From positions 1,682,188-1,746,187 of the forward strand of contig JAMPIW010000007.1 in NCBI GenBank assembly GCA_040183005.1: DNA of 64,000 nucleotides. The letters are read 5' to 3'. A program made the translations under genes and the position numbers. Below, one piece after another: positions 38,942 to 58,460 of this stretch; the first letter of the stretch is position 1; every line of letters starts with the position of its first letter. The DNA is from Gammaproteobacteria bacterium (lineage in GTDB: Bacteria > Pseudomonadota > Gammaproteobacteria > Ga0077554 > Ga007554). A model generated the notes under the pieces. That model worked only from the letters and a program-made list of their open reading frames with translations, was not told the DNA's origin and did no database searches.

Positions 38942-41671
38942 CTAAAAAAACAAGGTCATCCCAACTGTAAGGAGAGATTTGGAGTAATCTCCCAAGGCCC
39001 TACTTTGCACGCCTATGATATCTGTCGCATTCAGGATAAGACCTACAGGAAGATTCGAGTTGTTATTCTGGAAAGAATAACTGGCGAAGGCCCTCAGCTT
39101 ATCGTTGACTTCATAGTTCAAACCCAAGGAGAGGGAATTAAACACATTGGTTCGACGCTGCTGGAAATTGGAAACCGAGTCGGGATTCGTGTAATTATTT
39201 AAAGCAAAACTATACGCTACGTTAGCCGACATTTTTTCCGACAATGACTTGTCAAATCGCACTGTACCGGTATGACCATGATATGCATAGTCATGCCCTT
39301 CAGGCCGCGTATTACGATTGGCGGCAAAATCATAGCTCAGCAGAATCGACCGCCCAAGCCCCAACCCCTGATTGAACGTCAATCCTGTTGAGTACGTCAC
39401 AGAATCAAAAAAGCTGCTCGAAGTACTCGTAAAATCCCTATACGATAAATTGAATCTCATTATTGTCGGCGCGCTTTTTCTTTCCCCCGGCGCTGCAAAC
39501 CTCCCGAACACAGAGGGCATTTCAAAGCGCCATAATGTGTCGGCATAGACATTATTACCCACACTGACTCTTTGTTCATTGAGCAGGCCTGAGATATCGG
39601 TACGCGTCCCACCCAGCGTCACACTCCTGTTACTGGGACCCCAAGTAACAAACGGGCCAACATCTATTCTTGTAAAATCTGCCTGTGAAAAATGGTACAT
39701 CATATAAGCAGGGCTGACCGTCAAGCCACTTCTAACATTCCTGCTCAACTTATAGCGGTAGGTCATATTCAGAGAAAGATTTGATATATATTCATAAAAT
39801 GGCGCAATGTTGCTCAGATTGGTATTATTATCATAAGTCAACGAATAACCCATGTTATAGGTAAATCCGTTGATTTTGCGTTCAAGCGCCGGGATTTTTT
39901 TCTCAGCCGCCACCACCACCGGGCTTGCCCTCCCATTCTGCACTATAAACCTGTATTCCTTGAGCGCATCTTCTTCACGATTCGAGTTTTCATAGAGCAA
40001 GGCAAGGTTGCCGCGCGCGCTAAAATTATCGGGGTTCAGGCCAACAATCTGTTGATAGGTACGCTCCGCCTCACCTAGCTCACCTTTTCGTGACTGAATC
40101 AGCGCCGTGTAAAACAAGGCAATGATGTCGTTTGGATTCTTCTGAAGAATATCGTCAAAATGCCCTTTTGCAAGATCCAACTTATCTTTCGCGTACAAAT
40201 CCCTTGCCACGGCAAGTTGTAATTTATTTCTAATCCGCTCCGCCTCCGCAGGTTCTTTTTCCAGCGCAGCAGCCTTGTTATAGGCATCGACCGCCTTCTC
40301 GTACAATCCCTGGTCATCCTGAATCAGCCCAATATAGAAATGGGCCTTGGCATAATCAGGATTAATACGAATCACAGCTTCAAATTCACGGAGCGCCTCA
40401 TCCCGCAACGACTGCCTAGCATAGAGTGTTCCCAGATTAAAATGCGCCACCAAGTCATCAGGTTTGACCGCCAGAGTCTTTTTATACCCCTCCATTTCAT
40501 CCGCCAGTTTGCGCGCCTCAGCCAGTTTTTCACCAAACGTCTCCTGCATATTGCGAAGAATGGCGGCAGCCTGCTGTCCAGGCGGCGTGTTGGCACCAAT
40601 GGAAACCACCGCCTCCAACTCTCTGGAACTCTCTACGAATTTATTTACCTCCATATACATCACGCCAAGCCGTAATCGCGCCTCCAAATGGCGCGGCTCA
40701 ATCTCCAGCAATTTCTTGAACGTAGCCACCGCTTCATCCGGTTGCTTTAATTCACGATAAATCGTTCCAATATTGAAAAGGGCCATCAGCTCATTAGGAT
40801 CAATGGTCAAGACTCCTTGAAACTCTTTTAACCCCCCCTGGAGATCTTTCTTTTCGAGTAACTGAACCCCTTTTATGAGCCCAAGCCTGACCGTGGCCCT
40901 GCGTCCGATATCACTTCCCGGCTCGAGTGTAATGGCCCGTTTTAACTGTTCTACAGCAAGCGGAATTTTGCCGCTTCTTTCATAGATCCTGGCAAGATAG
41001 AAATGGGGCGTTGCACTACCGGGCACAAGCTGCATCACTTGCTTAAAAACACCCTCGGCATCATCCAGGCGATTAAAGTTAAAAAACGCCAGCCCCACGG
41101 CATGCAGAACACGCGAATCATTGGGATAATCCCTACGCAGCACGGACGCCAGGGCCAAAGCCGCATCGAAATCGCCGGCCTCCGCATATTGCCGGATCTG
41201 GAGCAGATAAAGGGCTTTCTCTGCATTCCTGGCCTCGTCCGTTCCTGGCGACTTGGACATGATGAATTTATACTCCTTCATCGCATCATCCAACCTGTTC
41301 AATTGCTCGTAAACAAGAGCCAGAGAGGCACGCACTTTCAAATTTCCAGGCGCAAGTATTGAACTTTTCTTTATATATTCCAAACCCTCATTCGGCTGGT
41401 TCTTGCGCATGTAAATAACACCGATGTAATAAATAGCCTCGGCATTTTCGGGGACAATCTTGAGTGCAGAATTGAAACTACCCAACGCGCCATCCAGATC
41501 ATCCTTATCCATCTGGGCTTTACCACTCGCCACAGCCTGTTCAAGTCCGAGTGATTCGGAAGGTGTTTTTTTGATGTCAGGAACCGATGATTGCTCCGCA
41601 GCAAAGACGAAACTCGCCTCATGAAGCAATAAGAGATTAAACACGAAAAACAACAACAGCCTTTTCTTCAC
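38942..41671 (-). CDS. TPR-repeat protein with C-terminal outer-membrane beta-barrel
   Basis: A 909-residue secreted protein. Signal peptide 1-24 (ending FVFA). Residues ~45-600 are a long run of tetratricopeptide repeats (for example AIYYIGVIYMRKNQPNEGLE, AHFYIGLIQDDQGLYEKAVD). The last ~300 residues alternate aromatic strands and end ALGDYSKSLLTVGMTLFF, the terminal-Phe signal of an outer-membrane barrel. The layout recalls exopolysaccharide or cellulose export porins, where periplasmic TPRs guide a polymer to the barrel, but no polymer synthase lies nearby. First of a minus-strand cluster ending here; it may be the outer-membrane exit for the exporters beside it. Confidence 0.82.
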   Translation of the reverse strand: MKKRLLLFFVFNLLLLHEASFVFAAEQSSVPDIKKTPSESLGLEQAVASGKAQMDKDDLDGALGSFNSALKIVPENAEAIYYIGVIYMRKNQPNEGLEYIKKSSILAPGNLKVRASLALVYEQLNRLDDAMKEYKFIMSKSPGTDEARNAEKALYLLQIRQYAEAGDFDAALALASVLRRDYPNDSRVLHAVGLAFFNFNRLDDAEGVFKQVMQLVPGSATPHFYLARIYERSGKIPLAVEQLKRAITLEPGSDIGRRATVRLGLIKGVQLLEKKDLQGGLKEFQGVLTIDPNELMALFNIGTIYRELKQPDEAVATFKKLLEIEPRHLEARLRLGVMYMEVNKFVESSRELEAVVSIGANTPPGQQAAAILRNMQETFGEKLAEARKLADEMEGYKKTLAVKPDDLVAHFNLGTLYARQSLRDEALREFEAVIRINPDYAKAHFYIGLIQDDQGLYEKAVDAYNKAAALEKEPAEAERIRNKLQLAVARDLYAKDKLDLAKGHFDDILQKNPNDIIALFYTALIQSRKGELGEAERTYQQIVGLNPDNFSARGNLALLYENSNREEDALKEYRFIVQNGRASPVVVAAEKKIPALERKINGFTYNMGYSLTYDNNTNLSNIAPFYEYISNLSLNMTYRYKLSRNVRSGLTVSPAYMMYHFSQADFTRIDVGPFVTWGPSNRSVTLGGTRTDISGLLNEQRVSVGNNVYADTLWRFEMPSVFGRFAAPGERKSAPTIMRFNLSYRDFTSTSSSFFDSVTYSTGLTFNQGLGLGRSILLSYDFAANRNTRPEGHDYAYHGHTGTVRFDKSLSEKMSANVAYSFALNNYTNPDSVSNFQQRRTNVFNSLSLGLNYEVNDKLRAFASYSFQNNNSNLPVGLILNATDIIGVQSRALGDYSKSLLTVGMTLFF

Positions 41672-41752: not shown

Positions 41753-42673
41753 CTAATAATAAATATTTATCTTGAACAATGCCTTCCATCCATCAAAGGA
41801 TAGTCTAAGTTTTTTATAGCCCGACCCATCTGCCGCCTGATATTCAAGATTGCCGTCTTCAGGGTCGGAAACACCGCTTTCCGAAGGATTGGGTCGAACA
41901 GGGGTATTCATAAATATGCCATCAGTGGGCAAAAAATCTCTGTTGATATTATTATTTCTAAACGTAAACTTCCTGAGGCCATAGCTATAACTTGTCTCAA
42001 ACCCAAGCGATAACCATTTTTTTAAAAAAACCTCCCCACCAACCCCCGGCTGCAACATGAGAATTCCCGTAGCTTTCGATTCAATAACAAAGATCTTTTT
42101 GAAAGTTGCCGCCGGACCATCCAGATACAGGAATACCCAGTCTTCCCGATAGCCGATATCAAAAATTTCATGCAGTGACAAACGGAAATACAGATTGTAT
42201 TTATCAGGCTGGCTTATCGCAGTATGTTTCCAGCCCAGAAAAAACTCGTTATAAGAAAGCGTGGCCCTTCTGTCGTTTGTAACATTCGCCTCAAATCCCT
42301 GGACAGGAAACCTTCCATTGACAGTCGATGCCGATGAGCCTTCCCATGTACTTCCTCCAATCAAGAGTGCATTTTTTTTATCGGGCTTCCATTGAAACTC
42401 AATACCTGCCAGAGGGGCATAGTTAATACCAGGCAGAGGGTTGCTGAACACTTGACCTATAATTCTAGTGGGCGTATCTGCCGTAAGTATATCGGCCTCA
42501 TACTTGAGTGGCGCCCTGAACACACCTTCATTCAGCACTTTAAGATTAGGGGCGTGAATCCCAAGTATGGGTGAAAAACTCCATTGATACTCATCCTGTT
42601 TGGCATAGGCAACATTGCAAAACGTCGAAATACCTGCCAGGGCTGGGATGAATAGCAGAAAAACCCTGTGCAT
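41753..42673 (-). CDS. Secreted outer-membrane-type protein of unknown function
   Basis: A protein of 306 residues. ATG 42673 (MHRVFLLFIPALAG) gives a signal peptide ending NVAYA and begins 8 bp after the MMPL stop; the longer frame would overlap MMPL by 53 bp. The mature part is rich in Phe, Tyr and Gly with alternating strand patterns (FNPLP..., FFLGWKHTA, FRLSLHEIFDIGYRE) and ends ALFKINIYY, which fits a small beta-barrel. No family recognised. Gene order puts it between the exporter and the TPR barrel. Confidence 0.7.
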   Translation of the reverse strand: MHRVFLLFIPALAGISTFCNVAYAKQDEYQWSFSPILGIHAPNLKVLNEGVFRAPLKYEADILTADTPTRIIGQVFSNPLPGINYAPLAGIEFQWKPDKKNALLIGGSTWEGSSASTVNGRFPVQGFEANVTNDRRATLSYNEFFLGWKHTAISQPDKYNLYFRLSLHEIFDIGYREDWVFLYLDGPAATFKKIFVIESKATGILMLQPGVGGEVFLKKWLSLGFETSYSYGLRKFTFRNNNINRDFLPTDGIFMNTPVRPNPSESGVSDPEDGNLEYQAADGSGYKKLRLSFDGWKALFKINIYY

Positions 42674-42680
42674 CAGATCT

Positions 42681-45164
42681 CTACACAACACCTTGATGCT
42701 TTCCTTGAGAAAGGCGCGGCTTGAAGTAGGCAAACACCACGGGCAGCGCCATCAACGCCGCCAAACAACTCACCACCATGTATGCGGCGACAAAATACCC
42801 CAGCTTCTGGTTGGGAGGGAATTGGGAAAAGAACAACACCAAAAATCCCACCGTAACAATCATCGCATTAAACACAATGGTCTTTCCGACACTACGCAAC
42901 GTACCCAGCGTAGCGATCCGGTGATCATCAGTTTTTTGCCGCTCACGGCGATAACGGAAAATATAATGTATCGCGTAATCCACACCCACACCGATAGCGA
43001 CGCCCGTTGCCAGCGTCGTGGAAACGTCAATGGGAATACCGATAAAACCAGCACAACCTGCAATCAGCACGGTCGCTAGCGTTACGGGAATGATGGTCAC
43101 CAGCCCCATGGAAAAAGACCGGAACAACAGCGCCGCAAGCAGGAATATGCCCAGCTTTGACAGTACAATGGCCATGCCCTGCCCCTTGATCAGCAGCTCT
43201 GCCCATATATAGGAATTATTTGCAGAACCCGCCAAATTTACCTCAACATCCAATCCGGACATTTCCTTCTTCACAAAATCATTGACCCCATCAATGATCA
43301 CCTTGAGATCGCCGGTATGGTCCGTCTTGATGAAAAAGGTTACGTTGGCCTGCCGGTAATCATAATCTATTACCTCATTCAGCAGCTCGGGCTGGCCAGA
43401 TATGGAAAATAAAAAGAGGTCTTCAGCAACTTCCGCTTGAGATGCCGGCAATACATTGTACTGAGGTGCATCCGCATGAAGCGTTTTGTTCATGCTCTTC
43501 AAATAATCAACCACGGACAGCGAATCGCCCACATAAGGCAGGCCCTCAATCTTGTTCTGCAGCGCCTCGATCTTCTTCAATATCGCCAGCGACTTGAGAG
43601 CATCTTTTTGCTTGCCTTCGACAACCACATTCAGGAAAATCGTTCCGTCGAACTTCTTGTTCAGCATGTCATTGGAAAGCGCCACCTCGCTGTCTTTTTT
43701 GAAGTCACTCATCCAACTTGAATCCACATGCAGCAATGTCGCACCATAGACACCCACCACGGTCATCACAATCAGCGCAAGGCTCATGCTTTTTTTATTT
43801 TTGAGGGCGACCTCGCCCCAGCCCACCAAAGTCCGGGTAATCCGGTCTTGCTCCGCATGAACACGCATCGCACGCCGCTTTGCCAGATAACCACCAACCT
43901 TCGGCTTCAATTGACACAATGCGGCGGGGAGAAAGGTCACAGACAACAGCCAGCAATACACGATGCCGAGCACCGTGAACAAACCAAAGGTCTTGAACGG
44001 TGGCATTTCCGAAAACAACAGGGAAAGAAAACCTATCGCCGTCGTAAGCGACGTCGTGATCAAGGGCGGCCCGAGCTCCTCCAGCACCTGCCCAACAATC
44101 ACCTTTCCTTCCCGATAAGGGTCGCTTAAGACATTGTCGTAATAATTGGTTAACAGATGAACGGCATTACCTATCGCCACAGCCACCAGTATCACCGGCA
44201 GCATGGTGGAAATGGTATACAACGGTACATTCAGCGCCGCCATCGTCCCCATAGTCCAAATAATGCCAGCCGCCATTATCAGCAAGGGCAAAACCACGCC
44301 ACGCAATGTTTTAAACACAATAAAGAGAACAGCCATGATCGCCACTATCAGCAGCGGTATCATGACCTTCATGTCCTGCATGGCATAAAATCCCGAGCTA
44401 ACCTCGATGACCGGTCGGCCTGCCATGTAAAACACATCCGCATCCTTGTCAGCGGCCATATCGCTCTTTGCGGATGACTTGGCCTGTTGCTGCCACTGAC
44501 CCTGCCCGCCGCCTTGCGGCCATTTACCCTGCTGCCAATTGCCGCCACCAGCTCCGGGCTGGCCACCCCACGATCCGCCCCCTTGCTCCGCCGCGAGTAT
44601 CCCCTTGATCTGCCAATAGGTCTGATACCGGTTCGCTATCCCCTCCTTGAGCTTGGCTCGGATCATGGCCCCCGTGCCATCCTTGGAAACAATATTACCT
44701 ACAAACAAATCGCTATTGCCGTAAACGACACTCTTGAGCCGCTCGATGCCCACCTGATCGGTGGGCACGGTTTCCATGAGCCGCTGCGTGCTCAACTCCG
44801 ATTCAGTTCCAGTGAACACAGTGGCGGTGGACAATGAGGCCACATCTATCGTCCGATTGGCAATTACCCCCGGCAGCGCCGAAATTTTTTCCGTGATACG
44901 CGCAATGCGCGCCAACGTCTTGGGGTTAAAAATACCCTCTTTCTCGTTGACAATACCGATGATGACGGCATCCTTGACGCCAAACACCTCATCGACCCTT
45001 TCATCATAGAGAATCGCGGCATGTCCTTTAGGAAGGAAAACACGGGCGTCCGTCTCCCAGTGTAGCTTGGGCAACTGAAAGGCAAAAAATACCGTAATTC
45101 CAGCGATGACGAGCATCACGCTCTTGGGGAAATTCGTAACTAGGGCGTATAACCTGTTGAGCAT
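42681..45164 (-). CDS. MMPL/RND superfamily exporter
   Basis: An 827-residue inner-membrane protein with two MMPL halves, each one helix, a large periplasmic loop and a five-helix bundle: first half around MIPLLIVAIMAVLFIVFKTL and AVAIGNAVHLLTNYYDN; second half around GMAIVLSKLGIFLLAALLF and VGVDYAIHYIFRYRRERQ. Acidic residues in the helices suit proton-driven export. Residues ~190-232 of the first loop are an insertion rich in Gly, Gln and Trp (GGGNWQQGKWPQGGGQ). Relatives export lipids or hydrophobic compounds (for example HpnN, MmpL). DUF1302-type and LolA-like genes upstream suggest a trans-envelope route. Confidence 0.88.
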   Translation of the reverse strand: MLNRLYALVTNFPKSVMLVIAGITVFFAFQLPKLHWETDARVFLPKGHAAILYDERVDEVFGVKDAVIIGIVNEKEGIFNPKTLARIARITEKISALPGVIANRTIDVASLSTATVFTGTESELSTQRLMETVPTDQVGIERLKSVVYGNSDLFVGNIVSKDGTGAMIRAKLKEGIANRYQTYWQIKGILAAEQGGGSWGGQPGAGGGNWQQGKWPQGGGQGQWQQQAKSSAKSDMAADKDADVFYMAGRPVIEVSSGFYAMQDMKVMIPLLIVAIMAVLFIVFKTLRGVVLPLLIMAAGIIWTMGTMAALNVPLYTISTMLPVILVAVAIGNAVHLLTNYYDNVLSDPYREGKVIVGQVLEELGPPLITTSLTTAIGFLSLLFSEMPPFKTFGLFTVLGIVYCWLLSVTFLPAALCQLKPKVGGYLAKRRAMRVHAEQDRITRTLVGWGEVALKNKKSMSLALIVMTVVGVYGATLLHVDSSWMSDFKKDSEVALSNDMLNKKFDGTIFLNVVVEGKQKDALKSLAILKKIEALQNKIEGLPYVGDSLSVVDYLKSMNKTLHADAPQYNVLPASQAEVAEDLFLFSISGQPELLNEVIDYDYRQANVTFFIKTDHTGDLKVIIDGVNDFVKKEMSGLDVEVNLAGSANNSYIWAELLIKGQGMAIVLSKLGIFLLAALLFRSFSMGLVTIIPVTLATVLIAGCAGFIGIPIDVSTTLATGVAIGVGVDYAIHYIFRYRRERQKTDDHRIATLGTLRSVGKTIVFNAMIVTVGFLVLFFSQFPPNQKLGYFVAAYMVVSCLAALMALPVVFAYFKPRLSQGKHQGVV

Positions 45165-45345: not shown

Positions 45346-46812
45346 TTATGGAAAATATCCAAGGAATTGCGGCCTTTGCTGCGTAGCGGCAACGATGGGC
45401 GAAATGCCCCCGCCGGGATCGCCAAAGAAGCCCTTTTTTCCCCAAAAAAGATCCATGCCAACCCCTACTTGGAACTTGTCGGTCACCTGAAAGGTAACCT
45501 TAGGCTTCAGGTATGATTCCTTCATATTGATCAGATATATCCATAGAAACTGAGCCGTCGCGGAGTGTTGAGGAAACTCTTTTCTGCCAAAAAGATTGAA
45601 AGAACTGTCATTCCGCGCCTGAATCAATTCCGGGTCATGATTCAAAATTATCCACTGGGTAACCCCTGGCGACAGATCCAGGCCTTTTATATTGAAGTCC
45701 AGCCCCATCCCCCAGCGGATATGATCCCGCTTAAGTTCTCCATTATTATCAAGATAACCGTCGCCATTCCTATCCACTGTATTTTTCAACCCAAAATACT
45801 TACCCGTCACATAGGCTGCCTCGCCCTTTAGAATAACCGGACCGAGCTGCTTGACTGCGGTTCCACCGTACATCGCTATCCTGTTATAGGTTGGATACAA
45901 GACCGGATCTTCCTGCTTATCGAGCCTGATCGTGCGAAAAACCGTGGGGAAAAAATCCCATGTATATAAATAGCTCAGCGACACCTCAGTATCGAAAATA
46001 TTGGTAGTCGCCTTGAGCCCTACCTCGGAGTTCTCCAGCTTGAATGATTGAGGTTTCTTGGTTAATACAGTTCCAAAATTATCTCGAATCTCCTGAAGAA
46101 GCTCCCATTCAGAACCACGCGGCGCCGATTTGTGAAACTGGATATCGGGTATCACCAGGAATTGGTACGTAGTATCGCCGCGATAATGATCCATCTTCAG
46201 CGTCCACTGAGATATCCTATAATCCAGCAAATCTGGCAGGATCAGCTCCCTGAAGTCGACAGGATTTACTTCGTCTACGATTCTGACACCTTCCAGCACA
46301 CCCCACACAACATACTGCTTACCCAGGCGAATATCGAGATTTTTGAGGAACACATCAAAATAAAGCTCCCGGGTTGCTGCCACTGGGGAGTCTTTCTCAT
46401 GTTCAAGATTTTCAACAAAAACCAGAGGCTGCTGGGCATCTCGCTGTGGCCTGGCCGCAATCGTGCGGTAATCAAACAAATCATAGGCTAGGTCATAATA
46501 GGCCCAGCCAGTATAATTAAATTTAACATTTGAACTAAAAGGGTATTGCGCGTTCACATAGAGAATGTTCCGTATCTTGGTGATCGATCGTGGCTCACGG
46601 ATTCGGTACGCAGTTTCATTCTTCAAATAACCGCTCACACTCAGCTTGGACCAAAAGGAAGACTTCTCCTTTTGGACTTCACCCTCCCCAGCGGCCACCC
46701 CAAAATCAGCGCCTTGTATTTTTGCCTCATCGGCATATACGAATTGATGACTACCCATCAAAGCCGCCGCCCACAGGGCAACAGCACATCGCACTATCTT
46801 TCTTGCTTTCAA
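45346..46812 (-). CDS. DUF1302-type outer-membrane protein, C-terminus frameshifted
   Basis: A 488-residue secreted beta-barrel protein: signal peptide 1-27 (ending FVYA), then long alternating strands such as YLKNETAYRIREPRS, LDIRLGKQYVVWGVLEG and RIVDEVNPVDFRELILPD, the last typical of DUF1302/DUF1302-like proteins found with MMPL exporters. As read, the frame ends RPQFLGYFP at 45346. Skipping one base in the run of five C at 45407-45411 instead gives about 30 further residues ending NNDRIFMDFKYSF at a stop at 45306, a proper barrel C-terminus. Either a sequencing error, a mutation, or phase variation. It lies about 180 bp upstream of MMPL. Confidence 0.82.
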   Translation of the reverse strand: MKARKIVRCAVALWAAALMGSHQFVYADEAKIQGADFGVAAGEGEVQKEKSSFWSKLSVSGYLKNETAYRIREPRSITKIRNILYVNAQYPFSSNVKFNYTGWAYYDLAYDLFDYRTIAARPQRDAQQPLVFVENLEHEKDSPVAATRELYFDVFLKNLDIRLGKQYVVWGVLEGVRIVDEVNPVDFRELILPDLLDYRISQWTLKMDHYRGDTTYQFLVIPDIQFHKSAPRGSEWELLQEIRDNFGTVLTKKPQSFKLENSEVGLKATTNIFDTEVSLSYLYTWDFFPTVFRTIRLDKQEDPVLYPTYNRIAMYGGTAVKQLGPVILKGEAAYVTGKYFGLKNTVDRNGDGYLDNNGELKRDHIRWGMGLDFNIKGLDLSPGVTQWIILNHDPELIQARNDSSFNLFGRKEFPQHSATAQFLWIYLINMKESYLKPKVTFQVTDKFQVGVGMDLFWGKKGFFGDPGGGISPIVAATQQRPQFLGYFP

Positions 46813-47240
46813 ATCCGATCCTTACATTGATCACAAAGGATAACATGACCTTCGCCGGACAGCCCTAACCCCAAAGTAACCAACATTCCCGGTGCAAGCC
46901 GCCGTCCACAACCAGAACAATCCATTTGTCTATTCAACTTGATCTCTTCCCACCCCAAAACTGAAGGAAACCTGACCGGTTGAGATACCGTGCTTATCGG
47001 TGCTTGTGGACTCGGTGCCGCAACATTGCGCCCCGCGGTCTGCCCCCCAGCAAACGCCTCTTCAAGGATCGTGCGTATCAGGATGGAAACAGGCACGCCC
47101 AGATCACTCGCTCTTTGCATCACCCGATCCCGCAACACCTTAGGCACCCTGGCCCCTAAAAATTCTTCCTTACGCTTCATTGCAACAGACATTGCCTTAT
47201 CTCGCATAGCCTGTGCTTGTGTTATCGGCCTCTCACGCAT
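46809..47240 (-). CDS. Ribbon-helix-helix-like protein with C-terminal zinc ribbon
   Basis: A 143-residue protein. Residues ~26-65 (FLGARVPKVLRDRVMQRASD, SILIRTILEEAF) look like a ribbon-helix-helix DNA-binding fold. A Pro/Gln-rich linker follows, then a zinc ribbon with CSGCGRRLAPG and CDQCKDRI. It is the first gene of the minus-strand cluster; its stop overlaps the DUF1302 start by 4 bp. A perfect inverted repeat spans its promoter and ribosome site, so autoregulation is likely. Family not recognised by name. Confidence 0.75.
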   Translation of the reverse strand: MRERPITQAQAMRDKAMSVAMKRKEEFLGARVPKVLRDRVMQRASDLGVPVSILIRTILEEAFAGGQTAGRNVAAPSPQAPISTVSQPVRFPSVLGWEEIKLNRQMDCSGCGRRLAPGMLVTLGLGLSGEGHVILCDQCKDRI

Positions 47241-47243
47241 AAA

Positions 47244-47307
47244 CTCGCCCTCGATTAATGTATAACAATGAGAAACAAATGTTATACATTAATCGAGGGC
47301 GAGTCAA
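47244..47307 (-). promoter_or_regulatory. Perfect 24-bp inverted repeat over the promoter and ribosome site
   Basis: CTCGCCCTCGATTAATG... (47244-47267) and its exact complement (47280-47303) are separated by 12 bp. On the minus strand TTGACT (47302-47307) and TAACAT (47279-47284) form a promoter with a 17-bp spacer, so one arm covers the core promoter. The other arm contains GAGGG, the ribosome site 7 bp before ATG 47240. As transcription would start inside the loop, the repeat is more likely a two-site DNA operator than an RNA hairpin. The ribbon-helix-helix protein just downstream is the obvious candidate to bind it. Confidence 0.72.
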
Positions 47308-47482
47308 CAATCCAAAAGAAAGTCATGCCGCCAGGAACAGCAAGAGGAAAAATAGTAAAGGCAGCTCACACACACAGACACAAACTCGCCCCCCACTCTA
47401 GCTCACATGAAGAGGGGGGAGAAAATTTAATAATTGAGCATTCCCTCGCGGCCACCCGCCATAGAACATTCAGCGGGGTGAC

Positions 47483-48334
47483 CTATTTGCTATACCCTTT
47501 CTCCAAAGTCCTTTCAGCAAAAAGGCTATCCTGCAGACCAACATTGATCTCGACGTTGGTAACCTCAAACAGAGAAGAGTGCAGGGTTTGTACATTTTGA
47601 ACAACAACCTTATCCCACACCCATGCCGGCCCCACTTTTTGCCAGCGCAAATTTTGCCTTTTCAGCAAATCGCCCCTTTTGTCGTAATAATCAACTCGCG
47701 CCTTGATGCAACCATCCCAAGTAGGTGTCTTCAAGAACCAGGATAGTCGCTTGCTATACAGCGGGCTTTTTTCCTTCGGTGTACTCTCCACCACGTAAAA
47801 GTCATTATTGTTGGCGGTTTCGATTCGGATCAACTTGTGCTCATCCTCATCCCATGCCCTGCCACTGATATCGGCATACGTCAAATCCGACCCCAAAAAA
47901 CTATCACCCGGATCCCTGATCGAAACCCGCCGTATCTTTCTCAATGCCGGCAGATAAATCCACTGATCGGCATTCTTGTCCGACTCACGGGTAAATGCCC
48001 AACGCATAAAGGCCGCACCCTGGGCATCCGGTGGATATTCCGTGAAGAGAATCATTTTATCGGCGACACCCTCGGCCCCCTTATAATCCTTCCACAAACG
48101 GAGGTAGACATTTTTTCTCTCGCTCCCCGAGCTGTCCTTGAGAATAATCGCCAACTTTGAGCGCTGATCATTACCGGGGTTTTTGAAATCACAGTTTTTC
48201 ACGACATCTTCACCCGTCACACTCCCTGCCCCGTCTTGAGCCGCGTGAACCTGGGGTGTAACGACCACACCGGACAACAACAATGAAAGCGCCATCAGAT
48301 AACGCTTAATACTGAAACCCATCAATGGACCCAT
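47483..48334 (-). CDS. LolA-like outer membrane lipoprotein-sorting family protein
   Basis: A protein of 283 residues. ATG 48334 (MGPLMGFSIKRYLM) follows AGGAG by 6 bp; the longer frame is rejected. Signal peptide ends near TPQVHA. Conserved LolA-like blocks: DKMILFTEYPPDAQGAAFMR, DQWIYLPALRKIRRVSIRD, FYVVESTPKE, RVDYYDKRGDLLKRQ and SLFEVTNVEINVGLQDSLF. Same order of blocks as the protein at 33.4-34.2 kb. Placed upstream of the ribbon-helix-helix gene and the DUF1302/MMPL genes, it likely serves as periplasmic carrier for that exporter. Confidence 0.82.
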   Translation of the reverse strand: MGPLMGFSIKRYLMALSLLLSGVVVTPQVHAAQDGAGSVTGEDVVKNCDFKNPGNDQRSKLAIILKDSSGSERKNVYLRLWKDYKGAEGVADKMILFTEYPPDAQGAAFMRWAFTRESDKNADQWIYLPALRKIRRVSIRDPGDSFLGSDLTYADISGRAWDEDEHKLIRIETANNNDFYVVESTPKEKSPLYSKRLSWFLKTPTWDGCIKARVDYYDKRGDLLKRQNLRWQKVGPAWVWDKVVVQNVQTLHSSLFEVTNVEINVGLQDSLFAERTLEKGYSK

Positions 48335-48660
48335 GGTGACTCCTGTTTTGTTTTGATACGGCTTCATCCCGGTGACCAAGGTAAACGGGCTCGGTTCCGC
48401 CAATAGCCTGAAGCTCAGGTTACGGAACCCAACCTCTTCTCTAGATCACTCTTTTCTTTGAAATGCCTGTAGGTGGAATTGATCTGCATTACCGCCATAG
48501 GATCGAGACCATTAGATTGATTATTGTACACATTCACTGAAGGCCCTTTTTTCAGACCGTGTATGGAGGCTAGGAAGTTACCCTGACTGGTCAAATCTTG
48601 TCAAACATTTTTGGCTGTTATGCAAGGCATCAAGGAGATATCGACCCAGGAGTACTAACG

Positions 48661-48732
48661 ATGGCAGATAACGATAAAGCGCTGAAAGACCCCGCAGTCT
48701 CGCGCCAAATGAAAGAAACCTGGCCACGCTAA
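48661..48732 (+). CDS. 23-residue open frame with strong ribosome site and terminator
   Basis: MADNDKALKDPAVSRQMKET then WPR, preceded by AGGAG 8 bp before the ATG and followed after 27 bp by a strong terminator. It lies alone in the 480-bp gap between two divergent-to-convergent genes, on the opposite strand to both. Highly charged, no membrane segment. No family recognised. Either a small protein or the coding part of a small regulatory RNA. Confidence 0.5.
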   Translation: MADNDKALKDPAVSRQMKETWPR

Positions 48733-48758
48733 ATCGAACTTAGCAACGATCACACATA

Positions 48759-48789
48759 AAAAAAGAGGGGCCTAGACCCCTCTTTTTTC
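48759..48789. terminator. Bidirectional rho-independent terminator
   Basis: AAAAAAGAGGGG (48759-48770) and CCCCTCTTTTTT (48777-48788) enclose CCTAGA; A- and T-tracts flank both sides. It ends the 23-codon unit on the plus strand and the secreted-protein gene (48816-49781) on the minus strand. Confidence 0.9.
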
Positions 48790-48815
48790 TTTACACCAAC
48801 CGGATTTCCCAGCTA

Positions 48816-49781
48816 TCAGAACGTGGGCACAGGGCCAAAGATGGCTGTTTTCCAGGTGGGGTTAGGGGCCGTGTCAAACAGCGGCTTAGCGGTCAAGCTG
48901 AAGTAGTTGATATTAGCAGTCGAATTACCGCTAACAGGATCAACCTTATCATAGGCCTGGAAGCCGAATACCTGTTGTGCGGAACCGGTACCGGTGCCGG
49001 CAAGGGTCACCTGCTGACCAATCAAGGTTGCCCTCACATTTTCACCCGCAGCAAAGGCGAGCGTCTGGGTACCGCCGGTAGAGGTTGGCAAGGGTGGCAA
49101 TGAGAATGCGCCGCCCGCAGCGACTGCAGTACCCCCCGCCTCGCGCATGCGGAAGACCTGGGTATCCGCAGTAGGTCCAGCCCCTGCCAGCCCGACGACC
49201 TGGTCCATACTCATGACCTTACTAATGACGGGACTACCGGAGGCATTCGCTTCTTGCGCCATGTCAAAATTTGAAACGAAAATGCTTGCAGTATCGGTCA
49301 GACTCTGATGCAGGGTAATTTTCGAATTGCCGCTCGCCAAAGCCCAACCCGTATCCACCGCACTGGTAGTAACAAAATCAATGGTGCTCGGCACCGGTAG
49401 TAATGAACCGAGCTGACTGACCGACTGCATGTCCGAAATACCGTTCACAGCGCCTATTTTGACAAAGTTCGAGTCAAAGAAGCTAAGAGGGGTCGTGCTG
49501 GTGGGATTACCGGTAGCACCTTTATCTGTGACGATGGTTTGATAGTAGCTGGTACCCACGGGTTCAGCTGCGCCGTTGCCTGCCGTAAGCTGGCGCTGCA
49601 GGAAGCCATCGCCCGTCATCAAAATCACACAGCTATAATTTGTTGGGCAGGCCCCAGCGGCAATCGTGCCACCCGCCACACTCCAGTTGGTCAGGCTGTC
49701 TGGGCCGGCCGCCATCGCCACCCCCGATAAAATCATCGCCACTGAACCGGCGGAAGCCATAAACATTATCTTGTTACGCAT
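48816..49781 (-). CDS. Secreted protein of unknown function
   Basis: A protein of 321 residues, starting at ATG 49781 with GGGGAG 7 bp upstream. Signal peptide MRNKIMFMASAGSVAMILSG followed by VAMAAG. The mature protein is rich in Ser, Thr, Gly and Ala with few charged residues (CPTNYSCVILMTGDGFLQRQ is one of its few distinctive stretches, with two cysteines that could pair). No lipobox, no sorting tag recognised. A consensus CRP-type site lies about 165 bp upstream. Possibly an extracellular or surface protein; no family recognised. Confidence 0.75.
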   Translation of the reverse strand: MRNKIMFMASAGSVAMILSGVAMAAGPDSLTNWSVAGGTIAAGACPTNYSCVILMTGDGFLQRQLTAGNGAAEPVGTSYYQTIVTDKGATGNPTSTTPLSFFDSNFVKIGAVNGISDMQSVSQLGSLLPVPSTIDFVTTSAVDTGWALASGNSKITLHQSLTDTASIFVSNFDMAQEANASGSPVISKVMSMDQVVGLAGAGPTADTQVFRMREAGGTAVAAGGAFSLPPLPTSTGGTQTLAFAAGENVRATLIGQQVTLAGTGTGSAQQVFGFQAYDKVDPVSGNSTANINYFSLTAKPLFDTAPNPTWKTAIFGPVPTF

Positions 49782-49942
49782 ATCATATCTCCCCAATCAT
49801 GACACCCAATTTAGAGGCAAACTTATCGCCCCGTCCAAAACACCTGAGTACATCTGTGGGGTTATTTTTAACATGGGCCAACATGTTTGTCAAGGCCATT
49901 AATATTTATCGGCTCATCCAGGGAAAATCTTTAGGCTAGAGA

Positions 49943-50230: not shown

Positions 50231-51119
50231 TCAGGTTGTCACTTCGCTGGTTAAATCCAGCGCATGCAAATTCCACGGCAACAGCGCTTCCATTTCTTCC
50301 ACCGTCCTGGCGGCGGGCAAGTCACGCATGACGCGGCGCAACCAGGCGTAGGGCTCCTGGCCATTAGCCTTGGCCGTCTGCAGCAGCGAGTAAATAATAG
50401 CGCTGGCGTTGGCACTGGCAGGCGTGTCGCTAAGCAGCCAGGCTTTGCGACCGATCACGAACGGGCGAATCGCATTTTCGCAGCGGTTGTTGTACCCCGG
50501 AGGGTAAGTTGCGCGCTCGATCGGCAGATCGCCGCGTTCCGTGTAGCGCGTCAGCATGCTCCAGTAGTCGCGCATATTAAGACAGTGCCGTACGGAGCGC
50601 ACTTTTGGGCGTGCCCCCCTGGCAGTGTTTTCCCCAGCCAGGCATGCAGTTCATCCAGTACCGGCAGACTGTGTTTCTGGCGCGCCTGAAAGCGCGCGTC
50701 ATCGGTGGACGCTTTGTGCTCACGCTCTATGCCGTACAGTCTGCCGATCAGGGCGACCGCCTCATCGGCACGGCCCTTCTTACCCTTGGGTTGCACGCGA
50801 GTAGCCTCGACAAAGCGCCGTCGTACATGCGCCCAGCACACCAGACGCTCAATACCCTCGGTTTTGGCCAACGGGTTGAGCCGTCATAGCCATCGGTCAT
50901 CAGATAGCCTTGATAGCCCTGCAGCAGGCGCAGCGGCACCTCGCTACTGCGACTCGGGTCGTAGTCATAGATCACCACCGGCTTGCCAGGCGGGCCGCCG
51001 GTTTGCACCCACATGTAACTGTTGGACGTAGGACTCTTGCCTTTTTCTTTGAGCACCTGCACCACGGTTTCGTCCATATCACCGTGAAGGTGACAATGTG
51101 CATGAACGGGCCCTCAAAC
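50231..51119 (-). pseudogene. IS66-family TnpC remnant (element A), C-terminal part
   Basis: Three frames on the minus strand together match the C-terminal part of an IS66 TnpC: DMDETVVQVLKEKG (first catalytic Asp) and LMTDGYDG from 51077; IERLVCWAHVRRRFVEA from 50871; and [19 protein letters not shown] (catalytic Glu) with [17 protein letters not shown] to 50231. Frame breaks lie near 50885 and 50605. The N-terminal half is cut off at 51120, where element B begins, and is not found beyond B. It is a different IS66 subgroup from B and C. Confidence 0.85.
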
Positions 51120-51149
51120 GTAAGCGTCCAGCCGCTCCACCTGTACAGC

Positions 51150-52472
51150 TCAGCCTGATGCCTGCACAGACCGCAACGGCAACAGCTCATCAATGCGGCT
51201 GTTAGGCCAGGTCGGCAGTTTCTCCAGCGTATCCTTCAGCCAGGCAGCCGGCTCGATGCCGTTGAGTTTCGCCGTTGCGAACAGGCTCTGGATGGCGGCG
51301 GCGCGGCGGCCCGCGCGTTCACTGCCGGTGAACAGCCAATTCTTTTTACCAAGCGCAATAGGACGGATAGCATTTTCCACCGGGTTGTTATCGATGGGGT
51401 AACGGCCATCCCCGAGGTAGCGCTTGATTGCATCCCAGCGTTTGAGGCTGTAGTCGATGGCCTTGGCGGTGCCGCTACCCGTGGCGGTGGTGAGCCGTGT
51501 GCGCTGGAGCCAGGCATGGAATTCGTCCAGCTTCGGCTTGGCGTGTTGCTGGCGTAATCATCGACCATAAGGGCACCCTTCCAGCCTTGCAGGAAGTTCC
51601 TGGCATGTTTGCCGCGCCGGTCGGCCTGGTAGTCGAAGAGGACGAGGGGGTCTCCCTGTTCGAGATCACAACTTCGGTAGGCCCAGAGGAAGGCGCGTAG
51701 CGTTTTTCCCCGTCCGGGGTCGAGTTGCTGCACCGGGGTCTCGTCGGCGTGCAAGACGGTGCGCTGGCGAAGTATCTCAGCCAGCCGGTCGGCCAGCGGC
51801 TGGAGTGCCACGCCAATGCGACCTACCCATTCGGCCAAGGTGGAGCGTGACAGGGTAACCCCACTGCGGGCCGCGATCTGCTCCAGCCGGTAGAGAGGCA
51901 GGTGATCCATGAATTTGCTGACCATCACCCAGGTGAGCAAGCCCGGCGCCGCCATGCCGCCGTCGATGACCGCCGGCGGAATCGGCGCCGCACTGACGGC
52001 CTCACAAGCACGGCAAGCATACTGCGGACGAATGTGGCGATGCACGAAGAAGCGGGCGGGCTCGACATCCAGTTGCTCGCTGATGTCTTCGCCGATCTTG
52101 ACCAGATCCTTGCCGCACTGGCCGCAGGTGCAACCCTCAGGTTCGTGGCGATGCTCGATGCGCGGGAGATGATCCGGCAACGGCTGGCGACCGGCGCGTT
52201 CGCGCTTGGGTTGCCGGGTAGATGCCACCTGTTCCACTTCGGCTTCCAGCGCACTGGTGTCGGTATTCCAGCTTTCCTCGAACAACTCGCGCTGCTCCAA
52301 GGAGAATTGTTCGCTCTTGTTGGTAAAAGCGAATGCGCTTGTAGTAGGCGAGCTCGAAGGTCAGGGCTTGGATTTTGAGCGCATCTTTTTGGGTTCTTTC
52401 GAGCAGCTTGCCTATCCATTCCGCCAAGGCGGGATCGGGCTTGAATTGGGCGAGTTCGGCGGCTAAATCCAT
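51150..52472 (-). pseudogene. IS66 TnpC of element B, disrupted
   Basis: Reading from ATG 52472 (MDLAAELAQFKPDPALAEWI) the protein breaks at about 52325, where CGCTTTTACC has one extra T relative to the intact copy C, and again at about 51553, where 193 bp are missing (after LMVDDYA). It resumes as MENAIRPIALGKKNWLFTGS to 51150. From LKIQALTFELAYYK onward it is almost identical to the TnpC of element C, while the first ~35 residues are unrelated to it, so the gene is a mosaic. Confidence 0.88.
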
Positions 52473-52552
52473 GCCTGTATTTTACCACTGGCATGCTCCG
52501 CAAGCCAGTAACAGCAAGGGTTTTAGGCTGTTTATCCACTAAAATAACGCGC

Positions 52553-52894
52553 TTACACTTGCCACTGTGACGGCGGTGGCGCCGAGAGTCTTTGCCAGTC
52601 GACACCGGCGGTCAGCCAGTCCCATTGTGCTGGCGTGAGGGCGAAGGTGGTGGCGTCCGATGTCGGCCAGATAAAGTGACCACGATGCAGGCGACGCTGA
52701 CAGAGCCAGACGCCAGTACCGTCCCAGATCAGGAGCTTGAGGCGGTTCTGGCGCCGGTTGCGGAAGGCGTAGGCCGTGCCGTCGCAAGGGGAGCGGCCGA
52801 GCGTGTTCTGGATGCGCTGGGAGAGGCCATCAATGCCGGCACGCATATCGATCGGTTCGACCACCAGCCAGACTTGTGCGGGCGTGGGGATCAT
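52553..52894 (-). CDS. tnpB: IS66 Orf2/TnpB of element B
   Basis: A 113-residue IS66 TnpB: VWLVVEPIDMRAGIDGLSQR, PCDGTAYAFRNRRQNRLKLL, WDGTGVWLCQRRLHRGHF. ATG 52894 overlaps the tnpA stop by 4 bp. Open frame intact, but its element lacks a working tnpC. About 60 percent alike by eye to the TnpB of element C. TnpB is needed for IS66 transposition; its exact role is unclear. Confidence 0.9.
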   Translation of the reverse strand: MIPTPAQVWLVVEPIDMRAGIDGLSQRIQNTLGRSPCDGTAYAFRNRRQNRLKLLIWDGTGVWLCQRRLHRGHFIWPTSDATTFALTPAQWDWLTAGVDWQRLSAPPPSQWQV

Positions 52895-53115
52895 GGCAGT
52901 TGCCGCAACAGGTCGGCCAGCCACGGTGCGCCCTCTGTCGGCAGCTCGATTCTCCAGCCGCCCGGACTGTGGAGCCGTACGACGTTCCCCGTTACCGGTG
53001 CACCCACGCTGACCGGCACCAAGGTGAGGGATGACTTTGCCGATGCAACGGCTTCCCTCTCCTTGCGCCGCCAGCGATAAAACGCCTTCTCACCCAACCC
53101 TTGGTTCGCACAATA
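52891..53115 (-). pseudogene. tnpA: IS66 TnpA of element B, 3' part, split by element C
   Basis: C-terminal ~72 residues (ANQGLGEKAFYRWRRKEREA; GGWRIELPTEGAPWLADLLR). The N-terminal part lies at 55537-55622. Removing element C and one copy of the 8-bp duplication joins the two into a continuous 100-codon frame, showing that tnpA was intact before insertion. Confidence 0.88.
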
Positions 53116-53190
53116 GTAAGCGTCCAGCCGTCCCACCTGTTTTTATAGTTACCCTTGCGCCACCCTGTGGTTTTCACAGGAGAGCGGCAC

Positions 53191-53508
53191 ATGAATATGA
53201 AATCGTTGGAGGCAAGTCGCCACTACTGGCAGCAGCACGTCGCGGCCTGGCGGTGTAGTGGCCTGAAGCAGATTGATTATTGCAGGCAGCATGGACTGGT
53301 GCCGAAGCAGCTTCGCTACCGGATCGCCAAAGACCGTCGAAACGACGTTTGCGTGAGCGGCACGGATGCGGTCACGCTGGTGCCCGTGCAGATCGAGGAG
53401 GTCAACGGTGCTGGGTTGGTGTTGCAGAACGCGGGGGGGTGGCAGCTCACGCTGCCGTCCGGTGTTTCGGCAAGCTGGCTGGCAACCTTGCTGCGGGGCT
53501 TGTCATGA
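53191..53508 (+). CDS. tnpA: IS66 Orf1/TnpA of element C
   Basis: A 105-residue IS66 TnpA with an N-terminal helix-turn-helix-like region (HYWQQHVAAWRCSGLKQIDY, CRQHGLVPKQLRYRI) and the C-terminal LPSGVSASWLATLLRGL typical of the family. ATG 53191 has GGAGAG upstream; the frame is open earlier but not conserved. Overlaps tnpB by 4 bp. Confidence 0.9.
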   Translation: MNMKSLEASRHYWQQHVAAWRCSGLKQIDYCRQHGLVPKQLRYRIAKDRRNDVCVSGTDAVTLVPVQIEEVNGAGLVLQNAGGWQLTLPSGVSASWLATLLRGLS

Positions 53509-53846
53509 TTGCGCAGCCGCATACGATCTGGGTGGCGGTCGCGCCGATGGACATGCGGGTGGGCATCGATGGTCTGTCGCTGCGGGTGCAGCAGGCGCTG
53601 GGCAAGGCCCCCTGCGATGGCTCGGCCTATGTGTTTCGTAACCGTCGCGGTGATCGGCTCAAGGTGTTGCTGTGGGATGGCAATGGCGTGTGGTTGTGCC
53701 AGCGCCGGTTGCATCGGGGGCGCTTCGTCTGGCCGCAGGCGGACAGTCCGGTCTGGTCATTGGAACTTGCCCAATGGCAGTGGCTGATTGCTGGTGTCGA
53801 CTGGCAGCGGATGTCGGCCCAACCGGCGGCCGACTGGCGTTTGTGA
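53505..53846 (+). CDS. tnpB: IS66 Orf2/TnpB of element C
   Basis: A 113-residue TnpB: TIWVAVAPMDMRVGIDGLSL, PCDGSAYVFRNRRGDRLKVL, WDGNGVWLCQRRLHRGRFVW. ATG 53505 overlaps the tnpA stop (ATGA). Intact. Confidence 0.94.
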   Translation: MIAQPHTIWVAVAPMDMRVGIDGLSLRVQQALGKAPCDGSAYVFRNRRGDRLKVLLWDGNGVWLCQRRLHRGRFVWPQADSPVWSLELAQWQWLIAGVDWQRMSAQPAADWRL

Positions 53847-53928
53847 CGATTGAAGCCGCCATGAAAAATGGTGAATAAAAACCTGTATTTATGCGGCTTT
53901 CTGCGGTGTTTCATGGTATAATTTTGTC

Positions 53929-55506
53929 ATGAAAAACGTTGCCGAAGCAGCCCTGCAAGACGCTCCTGTCGCTCTCAAAAACTGGGCTGTGCTGGCGATG
54001 CAGCAGCTCGACGAAAAGAGTAACAAAGTACAACAGTTAAGCGATCAACTGTCACTGCGCGACCAGCAGCTCAAACACGCCGACCTCAAAATCCAGGCCC
54101 TGACCTTCGAACTCGCCTACTACAAGCGCATTCGCTTTACCAACAAGAGTGAACAATTCTCCTTGGAGCAGCGCGAGTTGTTCGAGGAAAGCTGGAATAC
54201 CGACACCAGTGCGCTGGAAGCCGAAGTGGAACAGGTGGCATCTACCCGGCAACCCAAGCGCGAACGCGCCGGTCGCCAGCCGTTGCCGAATCATCTCCCG
54301 CGTATCGAGCATCGCCATGAACCAGAATCGTGCACCTGCGGCCAGTGCGGCAAGGATCTGGTCAAGATCGGCGAAGACATCAGCGAGCAACTGGATGTCG
54401 AGCCCGCCCGCTTCTTCGTGCATCGCCACATTCGTCCGCAGTATGCTTGCCGTGCTTGTGAGACCGTCAGTGCGGCGCCGATTCCGCCGGCGGTCATCGA
54501 CGGCGGCATGGCGGCGCCGGGCTTGCTCACCTGGGTGATGGTCAGCAAATTCATGGATCACCTGCCTCTCTACCGGCTGGAGCAGATCGCGGCCCGCAGT
54601 GGGGTTACCCTGTCACGCTCCACCTTGGCCGAATGGGTAGGTCGCATTGGCGTGGCACTCCAGCCGCTGGCCGACCGGCTGGCCGAGAGACTCCGCCAGC
54701 GCACCGTCCTGCACGCCGACGAGACCCCGGTGCAGCAACTCGACCCCGGACGGGGAAAAACGCTACGCGCCTTCCTCTGGGCCTACCGAAGTTGCGATCT
54801 CGAACAGGGAGACCCCCTCGTCCTCTTCGACTACCAGGCCGACCGGCGCGGCAAACATGCCAGGAACTTCCTGCAAGGCTGGAAGGGTGCCCTTATGGTC
54901 GATGATTATGCCGGCTACAAAGGCCTGTTCGCCCACGCCGTGGTGGAACTGGCGTGCCTGGCCCATGCGCGGCGGAAATTCTACGATCTGCATGCCGCCC
55001 ATCAGAGCCCGATTGCGGCCGAGGCATTGAAGCGCATTGCCGGACTCTACGCCATCGAAGATCAGGGCAAGACCCTGGGCATCGAAGATCGTCATGCATT
55101 ACGCCAGCAACACGCCAAGCCGAAGCTGGACGAATTCCATGCCTGGCTCCAGCGCACACGGCTCACCACCGCCACGGGTAGCGGCACCGCCAAGGCCATC
55201 GACTACAGCCTCAAACGCTGGGATGCAATCAAGCGCTACCTCGGGGATGGCCGTTACCCCATCGATAACAACCCGGTGGAAAATGCTATCCGTCCTATTG
55301 CGCTTGGTAAAAAGAATTGGCTGTTCACCGGCAGTGAACGCGCGGGCCGCCGCGCCGCCGCCATCCAGAGCCTGTTCGCAACGGCGAAACTCAACGGCAT
55401 CGAGCCGGCTGCCTGGCTGAAGGATACGCTGGAGAAACTGCCGACCTGGCCTAACAGCCGCATTGATGATCTGCTGCCATTGCGGTCTGTACAGACATCA
55501 GGCTGA
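53929..55506 (+). CDS. tnpC: IS66 transposase TnpC of element C
   Basis: A 525-residue DDE transposase, full length for IS66. N-terminal leucine-rich coiled coil (residues ~15-60), zinc-finger cysteines CTCGQCGKDL and CRACE, catalytic core with Asp in LHADETPVQQLD, Asp in MVDDYAGYKG and Glu in NPVENAIRPIALGKKNW, then a C-terminal arm. No frame breaks. Starts 82 bp after tnpB. Confidence 0.96.
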   Translation: MKNVAEAALQDAPVALKNWAVLAMQQLDEKSNKVQQLSDQLSLRDQQLKHADLKIQALTFELAYYKRIRFTNKSEQFSLEQRELFEESWNTDTSALEAEVEQVASTRQPKRERAGRQPLPNHLPRIEHRHEPESCTCGQCGKDLVKIGEDISEQLDVEPARFFVHRHIRPQYACRACETVSAAPIPPAVIDGGMAAPGLLTWVMVSKFMDHLPLYRLEQIAARSGVTLSRSTLAEWVGRIGVALQPLADRLAERLRQRTVLHADETPVQQLDPGRGKTLRAFLWAYRSCDLEQGDPLVLFDYQADRRGKHARNFLQGWKGALMVDDYAGYKGLFAHAVVELACLAHARRKFYDLHAAHQSPIAAEALKRIAGLYAIEDQGKTLGIEDRHALRQQHAKPKLDEFHAWLQRTRLTTATGSGTAKAIDYSLKRWDAIKRYLGDGRYPIDNNPVENAIRPIALGKKNWLFTGSERAGRRAAAIQSLFATAKLNGIEPAAWLKDTLEKLPTWPNSRIDDLLPLRSVQTSG

Positions 55507-56330: not shown

Positions 56331-57332
56331 TCAGGCTGATGCCTTTTCTTTTCTCTGGAGTCCCGCCGGGGGCCAATTCTCTAGGCACATACCCAAAGAC
56401 AGGCCATGAGAAGCCAAAACATCCTTAATTTCAGTCAAAGACTTCTTACCTAAATTAGGGGTTTTCAACAACTCAACCTCAGTACGCTGAATCAAATCAC
56501 CGATGTAATAGATGTTTTCAGCCTTCAAGCAATTCGCAGAACGGACCGTTAACTCAAGGTCATCGACAGGTCGAAGCAAGATCGGGTCGACCTCCATTTC
56601 TTTGATCGCCGTCTGCGCCTCTTCTTTGCCCTTCAACTCCACGAAAACAGAAAGTTGCTCCTGCAAGATAGTGGCTGCGCGACGAATAGCTTCCTCAGGA
56701 TCAATCGTACCGTTCGTTTCAATATCTATAACCAACTTATCCAAGTCGGTGCGCTGCTCAACGCGCGCGCTCTCTACCACATAAGAAACTCTGCGCACGG
56801 GGCTGAACGATGCATCCAACTGTAATCTGCCAATTGAATTACCGGCATCTTCAGTATTCAGACGGCTTAGCGCGGGCTGATATCCACGTCCCCGCGAGAT
56901 GCACAGGGTCATAGCCAATTCAGTGGGCTTAGTAAGATTCGCGATCACATGGTTAGGGTTCACTATTTCGATGTCATGAGGCAATTCAATATCTTTTGCC
57001 AACACAACGCCAGGACCTTTCTTTCTCAGATTGACCCACGCCTCATCGCGACCATGCATGCGTATAGCCAAACCCTTCAGGTTCAACAAAATATCAATAA
57101 TATCTTCCTGAACACCCTCGAGGCTGGTGTATTCGTGCAGAACGCCCTCAATCTCGGCCTCGACGACTGCACAACCGGGCATAGATGACAATAAAATACG
57201 GCGTAACGCATTCCCTAAAGTGTGACCAAACCCGCGCTCAAGCGGCTCCAATGTAACCTTGGCGTGCATCCCGCTGACCACATGCACATCAACCAGACGC
57301 GGCTTCAGAAATTCGAACACCGAACCCTGCAT
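56331..57332 (-). CDS. rpoA: RNA polymerase alpha subunit
   Basis: 333 residues. N-terminal assembly domain with [21 protein letters not shown]-terminal domain with [20 protein letters not shown] and [19 protein letters not shown], which contacts UP elements and activators. Canonical place between rpsD and rplQ. Length a few residues over E. coli RpoA. Confidence 0.98.
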
Positions 57333-57405
57333 GAAAAATCCTCTCTTACGTTAAGCGTGACGTACTTTTTGTACCCACAAGCCATCCAAAAATCACAAGA
57401 TTCGA

Positions 57406-58032: not shown

Positions 58033-58047
58033 AGCTACTCTCCAATT

Positions 58048-58437
58048 TTAAACACGACGCTTCTTCGGCGGCCGGCAACCATTGTGCGGGATCGGAGTAA
58101 CGTCAGTAATACTATTTATTTTAAAACCTGCAGCATGCAGCGCACGTACCGCAGACTCCCGGCCAGGCCCAGGGCCTTTTACGAGAACGTCTAAGTTCTT
58201 CATTCCAAACTCTTGAACAATAGATCCCGCTTTCTCTGCAGCAACCTGAGCCGCAAAAGGTGTACTCTTACGAGAACCACGGAATCCCGAGCTACCTGAG
58301 GTCGCCCAAGACAAGGCGTTTCCCTGGCGGTCGGTAATAGTTATAATTGTGTTATTAAAAGAAGCGTAGACATGCGCTACGCCGTCGACCACATTCTTTT
58401 TTACACGCTTGCGCGTACGCGTGCTGACTTTTGCCAT
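58048..58437 (-). CDS. rpsK: 30S ribosomal protein S11
   Basis: 129 residues; [34 protein letters not shown] and the end [10 protein letters not shown] are S11 signatures. 15 bp before rpsD. Confidence 0.98.
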
Positions 58438-58460
58438 ATCCGGTTCCTAGCTCTGTTGAA

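Follow-up and report, generated by a model that had tools for sequence, protein, structure and literature searches.

Gene content of the locus

The window, a 64,000-nucleotide stretch of contig JAMPIW010000007.1 from a gammaproteobacterial genome, carries a minus-strand envelope cluster that starts with a small regulator gene. We propose that the regulator, DUF1302, MMPL transporter, OMP and TPR genes form one operon. The main features, in the direction of transcription, are as follows.

47483–48403, minus strand: LolA-like/DUF1329 gene, upstream of the regulator; candidate source of read-through RNA
47326–47342, minus strand: weak terminator-like hairpin, followed by a T-rich tail and located immediately before the promoter
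47279–47307, minus strand: putative promoter TTGACT-17-TAACAT
47280–47304, minus strand: upstream palindrome arm, which takes up the promoter spacer and reaches into the −35 and −10 elements
47281–47287, minus strand: upstream operator half-site GTATAAC (conserved, in phased pairs)
47268–47279, minus strand: 12-nt loop
47260–47266, minus strand: downstream operator half-site GTTATAC, 21 bp from the upstream one, start to start
47243–47267, minus strand: downstream arm of the palindrome, containing the Shine-Dalgarno sequence
47248–47252, minus strand: Shine-Dalgarno sequence GAGGG, inside the predicted stem in read-through RNA
46809–47240, minus strand: RHH-like/zinc-ribbon regulator gene, a 143-aa ORF with homologs in relatives (34-sequence alignment)
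47052–47165, minus strand: RHH-like region of the regulator, residues 26–63, with AlphaFold2 helices at 34–47 and 51–62 and weak CopG, RHH_5 and Arc family matches
46812–46952, minus strand: four-cysteine zinc-ribbon-like C-terminal domain, residues 97–143, with invariant cysteines and pLDDT block means of 81–93
45346–46812, minus strand: DUF1302 gene, whose TTG start overlaps the regulator stop codon
42681–45164, minus strand: MMPL/HAE3-type RND transporter gene
41753–42733, minus strand: conserved operon gene, 326 aa, without a Pfam match
38942–41671, minus strand: TPR protein, a conserved operon gene

Distribution and genomic context

Homologs of the regulator were found in nine of 56 near genomes and, at E≤1e-3, in 22 of the 369 genomes of the class, the weakest of which (G362, 5.4e-4) is doubtful; both counts include the window's own genome, as does the count for its own family (seven of eight genomes). 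In the family of G247 the regulator is present in 8 of 11 genomes. Thirty-three regulator loci came from a named collection, where the records are titled Gammaproteobacteria, Chromatiaceae, Chromatiales and Ectothiorhodospiraceae; those of loci L051 and L060 are titled Proteobacteria. Of these 33 loci, 32 have a same-strand DUF1302 gene downstream of the regulator (the contig of L058 ends first), at a distance of about 0.9 kb in L040 and L044, and an MMPL match then follows in 25. Upstream, a lolA-like gene ends within 0.45 kb of the regulator in 22 of the 33. Six loci (L036, L039, L041, L042, L047 and L057) show no MMPL match between the DUF1302 and OMP genes and keep the regulator together with the other operon genes.

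The region further upstream has features of its own. Window positions 48816–49796 encode a 326-aa protein with no Pfam match at E≤1 and no NCBIfam match at E≤0.1, a relative of which is encoded upstream in 18 of the 33 loci. Between such a relative and the lolA-like gene, L030 has about 1.4 kb (3496–4870) without an ORF of at least 180 aa, except for one antisense ORF that reaches into the start of the 48816–49796-type gene. Two IS66-family transposase regions in opposite orientation occupy window positions 50551–55506: a full-length 525-aa transposase ORF (53929–55506, plus strand) and a broken relative in pieces (50551 to 52300, minus strand), along with a TnpB_IS66 ORF at 52553–52924. Beyond them, upstream of the envelope cluster, the minus strand at 56331–63908 holds what we take, from the ORF translations, to be ribosomal-protein, RNA polymerase alpha and SecY genes.

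The regulator protein

The first-pass annotation had joined a ribbon-helix-helix (RHH)-like domain to a zinc ribbon in this protein, and the description is consistent with two RHH-like helices, recurrent weak RHH matches and an invariant CxxC...CxxC arrangement. In the AlphaFold2 model (overall pLDDT 73.5, pTM 0.37) the two helices are predicted and the strand is not formed in the monomer; the segment EEFLGARVP is likely the RHH strand. The CopG_antitoxin match of the window protein alone has an E-value of 0.0053, below the curated cut-off; a weak match to this family recurs in 33 of 34 family members, with RHH_5 matched in nine and Arc in six. Both CxxC knuckles (C108, C111, C136 and C139) are invariant in all 34 aligned sequences, and this conservation is the ground for our guess that the regulator may sense zinc or redox state. 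NCBIfam gave no match for the regulator at E≤0.1, solved structures searched by sequence gave no relative better than E 0.047, and a PDB fold search returned nothing at E≤1e-3. All fold matches have E≥0.095, and zinc domains rank among the best of them: an atypical C1 domain comes first at E 0.095, with PARP-type zinc fingers from E 0.15 upward. Literature searches on RHH plus zinc-ribbon proteins and on DUF1302, DUF1329, LolA and RND proteins gave, among the titles and opening abstract lines listed, none that concerned the regulator.

A conserved core and probable operator over the promoter

Duplicate loci were merged to 40, and upstream counts were made without L068, which showed no motif in its slice and probably repeats locus L043, and without L055 (41 nt of upstream sequence). 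Within 200 nt upstream of the regulator, half-sites of the form GTATAAC or GTTTAAC, scored as exact matches to GT[ATC]TAAC or its complement, occur in 38 of 39 nonredundant loci, 78 in all; L053 has none. Shuffling the upstream regions 200 times gave 3.0 half-sites on average and 10 at most, a large excess in the real regions that is descriptive, the motif having been picked after reading these same regions. The rest of the loci contain 89 half-sites in 370,589 bases, or 0.048 per 200 bp.

The spacing of the half-sites is phased. Among inverted pairs within 60 bp, ten lie 10–11 bp apart and eleven 19–22 bp apart, start to start, with four at other distances, and 10 of 14 direct pairs are again at 10–11 bp; the loci behind these counts are partly related and thus not independent. 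Half-sites repeated at helical-turn spacing at the regulator's own promoter are an arrangement that marks RHH repressors. Of 32 regulator genes, 23 have a phased pair upstream; of 153 regions upstream of the other six genes, 1 has such a pair, in an unmatched control where many regions are coding. The 326-aa gene has single half-sites in its upstream region in 4 of 18 loci, and the lolA-like gene in 5 of 22; both figures exceed the background expectation, and weak secondary operator sites are possible there.

As many promoter-like sites were found in shuffled DNA as in the scan of the real sequence, and the promoter assignment draws its support from recurrence in relatives. In 21 of 39 loci, of which two are doubtful, a TTGACA-like −35 element lies 16–18 bp from the second hexamer of the core (TAACAT or similar); the spacing is 17 bp in 16. 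Transcription is predicted to start near 47271–47273, about 7 nt after the −10 element, inside the loop and after the upstream arm of the palindrome. Because the conserved phased half-sites put the operator over the −10 region, the regulator very probably controls its own gene. The autoregulation asserted in the first-pass annotation thus gains good comparative support; the site that would be recognised is the core of 7–9 bp, and not the arm of 24–25 bp.

The palindrome at the regulator promoter

The inverted repeat 47243–47267/47280–47304 is perfect. Its arms are 25 bp long, not 24 bp as first annotated, and one lies in the promoter spacer and the other over the ribosome site of the regulator gene (GAGGG, 47252–47248), just as had been described. 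It is the longest perfect inverted repeat listed in the window. Searching the genome for the arm, a check proposed with the original annotation, turned up no further copy beyond this locus: DNA search of the own genome found no second palindrome and one 14-nt chance match, and exact GTATAAC-N0-20-GTTATAC pairs occur in that genome at this locus only. Across the 461,980 bases of the window and the 40 loci (own locus counted twice), perfect arms of at least 20 bp with a loop of at most 20 are confined to regulator-gene promoters, namely those of the window (L003), L029, L030, L046 and L054. An Rfam search of 46500–48900 returned a sub-threshold mir-70 match only (E 0.46), which falls on the palindrome hairpin and which we take as chance.

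Predicted folding of read-through RNA

The lolA-like gene upstream is co-directional with the regulator, and RNA reading through from it would contain both arms. In such RNA the Shine-Dalgarno sequence is predicted to lie in the stem, at −61.4 kcal/mol for 141 nt (z −8.28), whereas in RNA from the predicted own start the hairpin is not formed (z −0.75). The RNA hairpin that the first-pass annotation had set against its operator reading is therefore predicted for one transcript and not for the other. In the window, the putative promoter would occupy the 5' strand of the hairpin and the ribosome site the 3' strand; in L046 this holds only partly.

We compared the unpaired probability of the Shine-Dalgarno region in read-through and own-promoter RNA for 19 loci, omitting L039 and L052, whose promoter matches looked spurious, and using a six-base window picked by rule, which in L029 lies just 5' of the likely site. 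The values are 0.00/0.41 in the window, 0.00/0.70 in L029 and 0.00/0.47 in L030. For decayed or second-lineage palindromes they are 0.17/0.49 (L031), 0.15/0.34 (L054) and 0.35/0.59 (L046), the contrast being weaker in L046, where the stem takes in just a portion of the Shine-Dalgarno sequence. On these predictions burial of the Shine-Dalgarno sequence is not unique to palindrome loci, because a few loci without a palindrome show the same contrast: L020 (0.01/0.30), L015 (0.12/0.42), L045 (0.17/0.62) and L037 (0.16/0.37).

From the lolA-like gene to the promoter the window has a G+C-rich hairpin without a clear T-run, and the predicted fold of this segment is barely more stable than that of shuffled sequence (z −1.23). 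The four congeneric species keep a weak hairpin upstream of the −35 element (−3.7 to −7.2 kcal/mol), at 47326–47342 in the window, which may be a weak terminator or another signal; since they keep it, read-through may already be reduced, and in the window's genus it is plausible, though perhaps only partial. Corresponding hairpins in L033, L048 and L020, relatives without the extension, reach −22.0, −23.3 and −13.1 kcal/mol, and L046 and L054 have no such element just upstream of −35. Strong terminators were counted in 0 of 6 palindrome loci versus 11 of 33 others (one-sided P 0.12), by hand, among related loci and with a cut-off set after seeing the data, the terminator row of L055 being an artefact of its short flank; 22 of the 33 non-palindrome loci have neither palindrome nor strong terminator. 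The association is suggestive only and is weakened by the weak hairpin in the window's genus.

A proposed two-level lock

The palindrome, the conserved phased half-sites, the synteny, the paired changes in the arms and the predicted folds are observed features of these loci, and from them we infer binding, repression, start site, read-through and translational block. The core GTATAAC...GTTATAC would be the operator of the RHH/zinc-ribbon protein; stacked dimers of this protein, bound across the −10 element and the start, would repress, or at least tune, its own operon. The outer arms would act on RNA: read-through transcripts from the lolA-like gene would form a stable hairpin in which the ribosome site is masked, own-promoter RNA, without the upstream arm, would be translated, and the operon would thus be expressed mainly from the regulated promoter. 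For the hairpin part we would put the likelihood a little under even. A palindrome with both jobs, operator core and read-through lock, seems to us likewise not quite an even prospect, slightly lowered from our initial estimate because of the weak terminator-like hairpin.

Extension of the arms and alternative explanations

Nineteen loci have an inverted half-site pair, and beyond the 7-bp half-sites they show either 0–5 or 12–17 matching bases and nothing between, with at most five in 14 of the 19. The long extension is found in the window, L029 and L030, which belong to one genus, and in L046 and L054 of genus g206 in another family (placed via the matching loci L063 and L062, and L048 via L064). 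L031, of the window's genus, has a decayed palindrome, and L048, a congener of L046 and L054, has no extension. Because the outer-arm letters differ between species yet stay complementary, the outer arms do not appear to be a conserved protein site. Across the four congeners, 15 of the 25 stem pairs never vary, six have changed on both sides and four depart only by unpaired cells; 91% of the stem cells are paired versus 35–50% for slid versions. None of 500 shuffles attains this pairing or the covariation score, and 18 attain the number of doubly changed pairs, in a test of four sequences with the structure taken from one of them. L046 and L054 have other arm letters and another arm length, each perfect and again between the −35 element and the Shine-Dalgarno site.

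These paired changes could also arise if the polymerase switched templates from one arm of the core palindrome to the other and so kept rewriting one arm in the likeness of its partner. The core operator alone would then be functional, and the outer arms a by-product bounded by the −35 element and the Shine-Dalgarno site. Template switching is known to homogenise inverted-repeat arms, according to excerpts of PMC8604942, and it would fit the way the paired changes cluster, for example where both arms have ATT in place of TAA. The departures in the inner 20 pairs of L031 (two G-U and two C-A) have no bias to G-U pairs, match the expectation of neutral drift and count against selection on a hairpin. 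However, comparable cores have stayed unextended in L024, L034, L039 (12-bp arms, 4-nt loop) and L047 (9-bp arms), the loci as a whole contain few other perfect repeats of at least 15 bp (four, not counting the palindromes of regulator promoters), and in both lineages the extended arms stop at the Shine-Dalgarno site or close to it. We consider this origin possible, if somewhat doubtful.

A role for the entire palindrome in the DNA itself, whether as an extended operator or as a supercoiling-sensing cruciform, is unlikely. Perfect symmetry would suit such a role, particularly in L046, where arms of up to 24 bp surround one central base, but the four species differ in their outer letters despite having an almost identical RHH region, and 14 of the 19 inverted-pair loci do without a long extension. 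Transcription from a start upstream of the whole repeat, so that the hairpin always blocks or regulates translation, would exploit the very stable fold (z −8.28); the promoter layout recurring in relatives puts the start after the upstream arm, and we judge this arrangement improbable. A role of the regulator as the antitoxin in a type II toxin-antitoxin pair, which its weak CopG_antitoxin match might suggest, is extremely improbable given the DUF1302 gene downstream in 32 of 33 loci, LolA-like and DUF1302 genes rather than an adjacent toxin as window neighbours, and no plasmid homolog at E≤1e-3.

Returning to the two-level lock, its fullest form is an operator twice extended into a covarying hairpin, with repression of the promoter on DNA and translational silencing of outside transcripts, and a new RHH/zinc-ribbon family tied to the HAE3/DUF1302 operon; in this form we advance it only tentatively. 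If true, a bacterial chromosomal operon would have a two-level lock made from one palindrome, whose outer arms show paired differences between species, and a regulator family without an NCBIfam match would gain a predicted operator and a target operon. A general question then becomes testable, namely whether long promoter palindromes persist because selection acts on read-through RNA or are products of template switching.

Comparison with known systems

In the fold-back protection of IS10/Tn10, an inverted repeat around the promoter makes the ribosome site inaccessible in transcripts that come from outside; the window palindrome, by contrast, involves no transposon. The regulator resembles CopG/Arc-type RHH repressors in its RHH-like region and in the phased, partly inverted half-sites over its own promoter, and differs from them by its C-terminal four-cysteine domain.

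The gene neighbourhood has a counterpart in AmeABCD of Castellaniella defragrans, a monoterpene efflux system which, in excerpts of PMC6394551, combines DUF1302 and DUF1329/LolA-like proteins with an HAE3-family RND pump. These components are common to both systems, and compared with what those excerpts describe the window operon has TPR and OMP genes and the RHH-like regulator in addition.

The closest parallel for the palindrome comes from phage T4. For I-TevI and gene e (lysozyme), excerpts of PMC2988022 and PMC3014915 describe a promoter encoded in the 5' strand of a hairpin and a ribosome site in the 3' strand, so that read-through RNA is folded and own-promoter RNA is free; I-TevI is also a repressor of its own promoter, acting through an operator. 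As far as these excerpts go, the layout predicted in the window is the same, and by analogy its palindrome may work like the T4 cases; we do not claim common descent. Unlike them, the window presents a chromosomal operon of a bacterium, an RHH-type regulator and a symmetric operator at the centre of the hairpin, as read from sequence and predictions.
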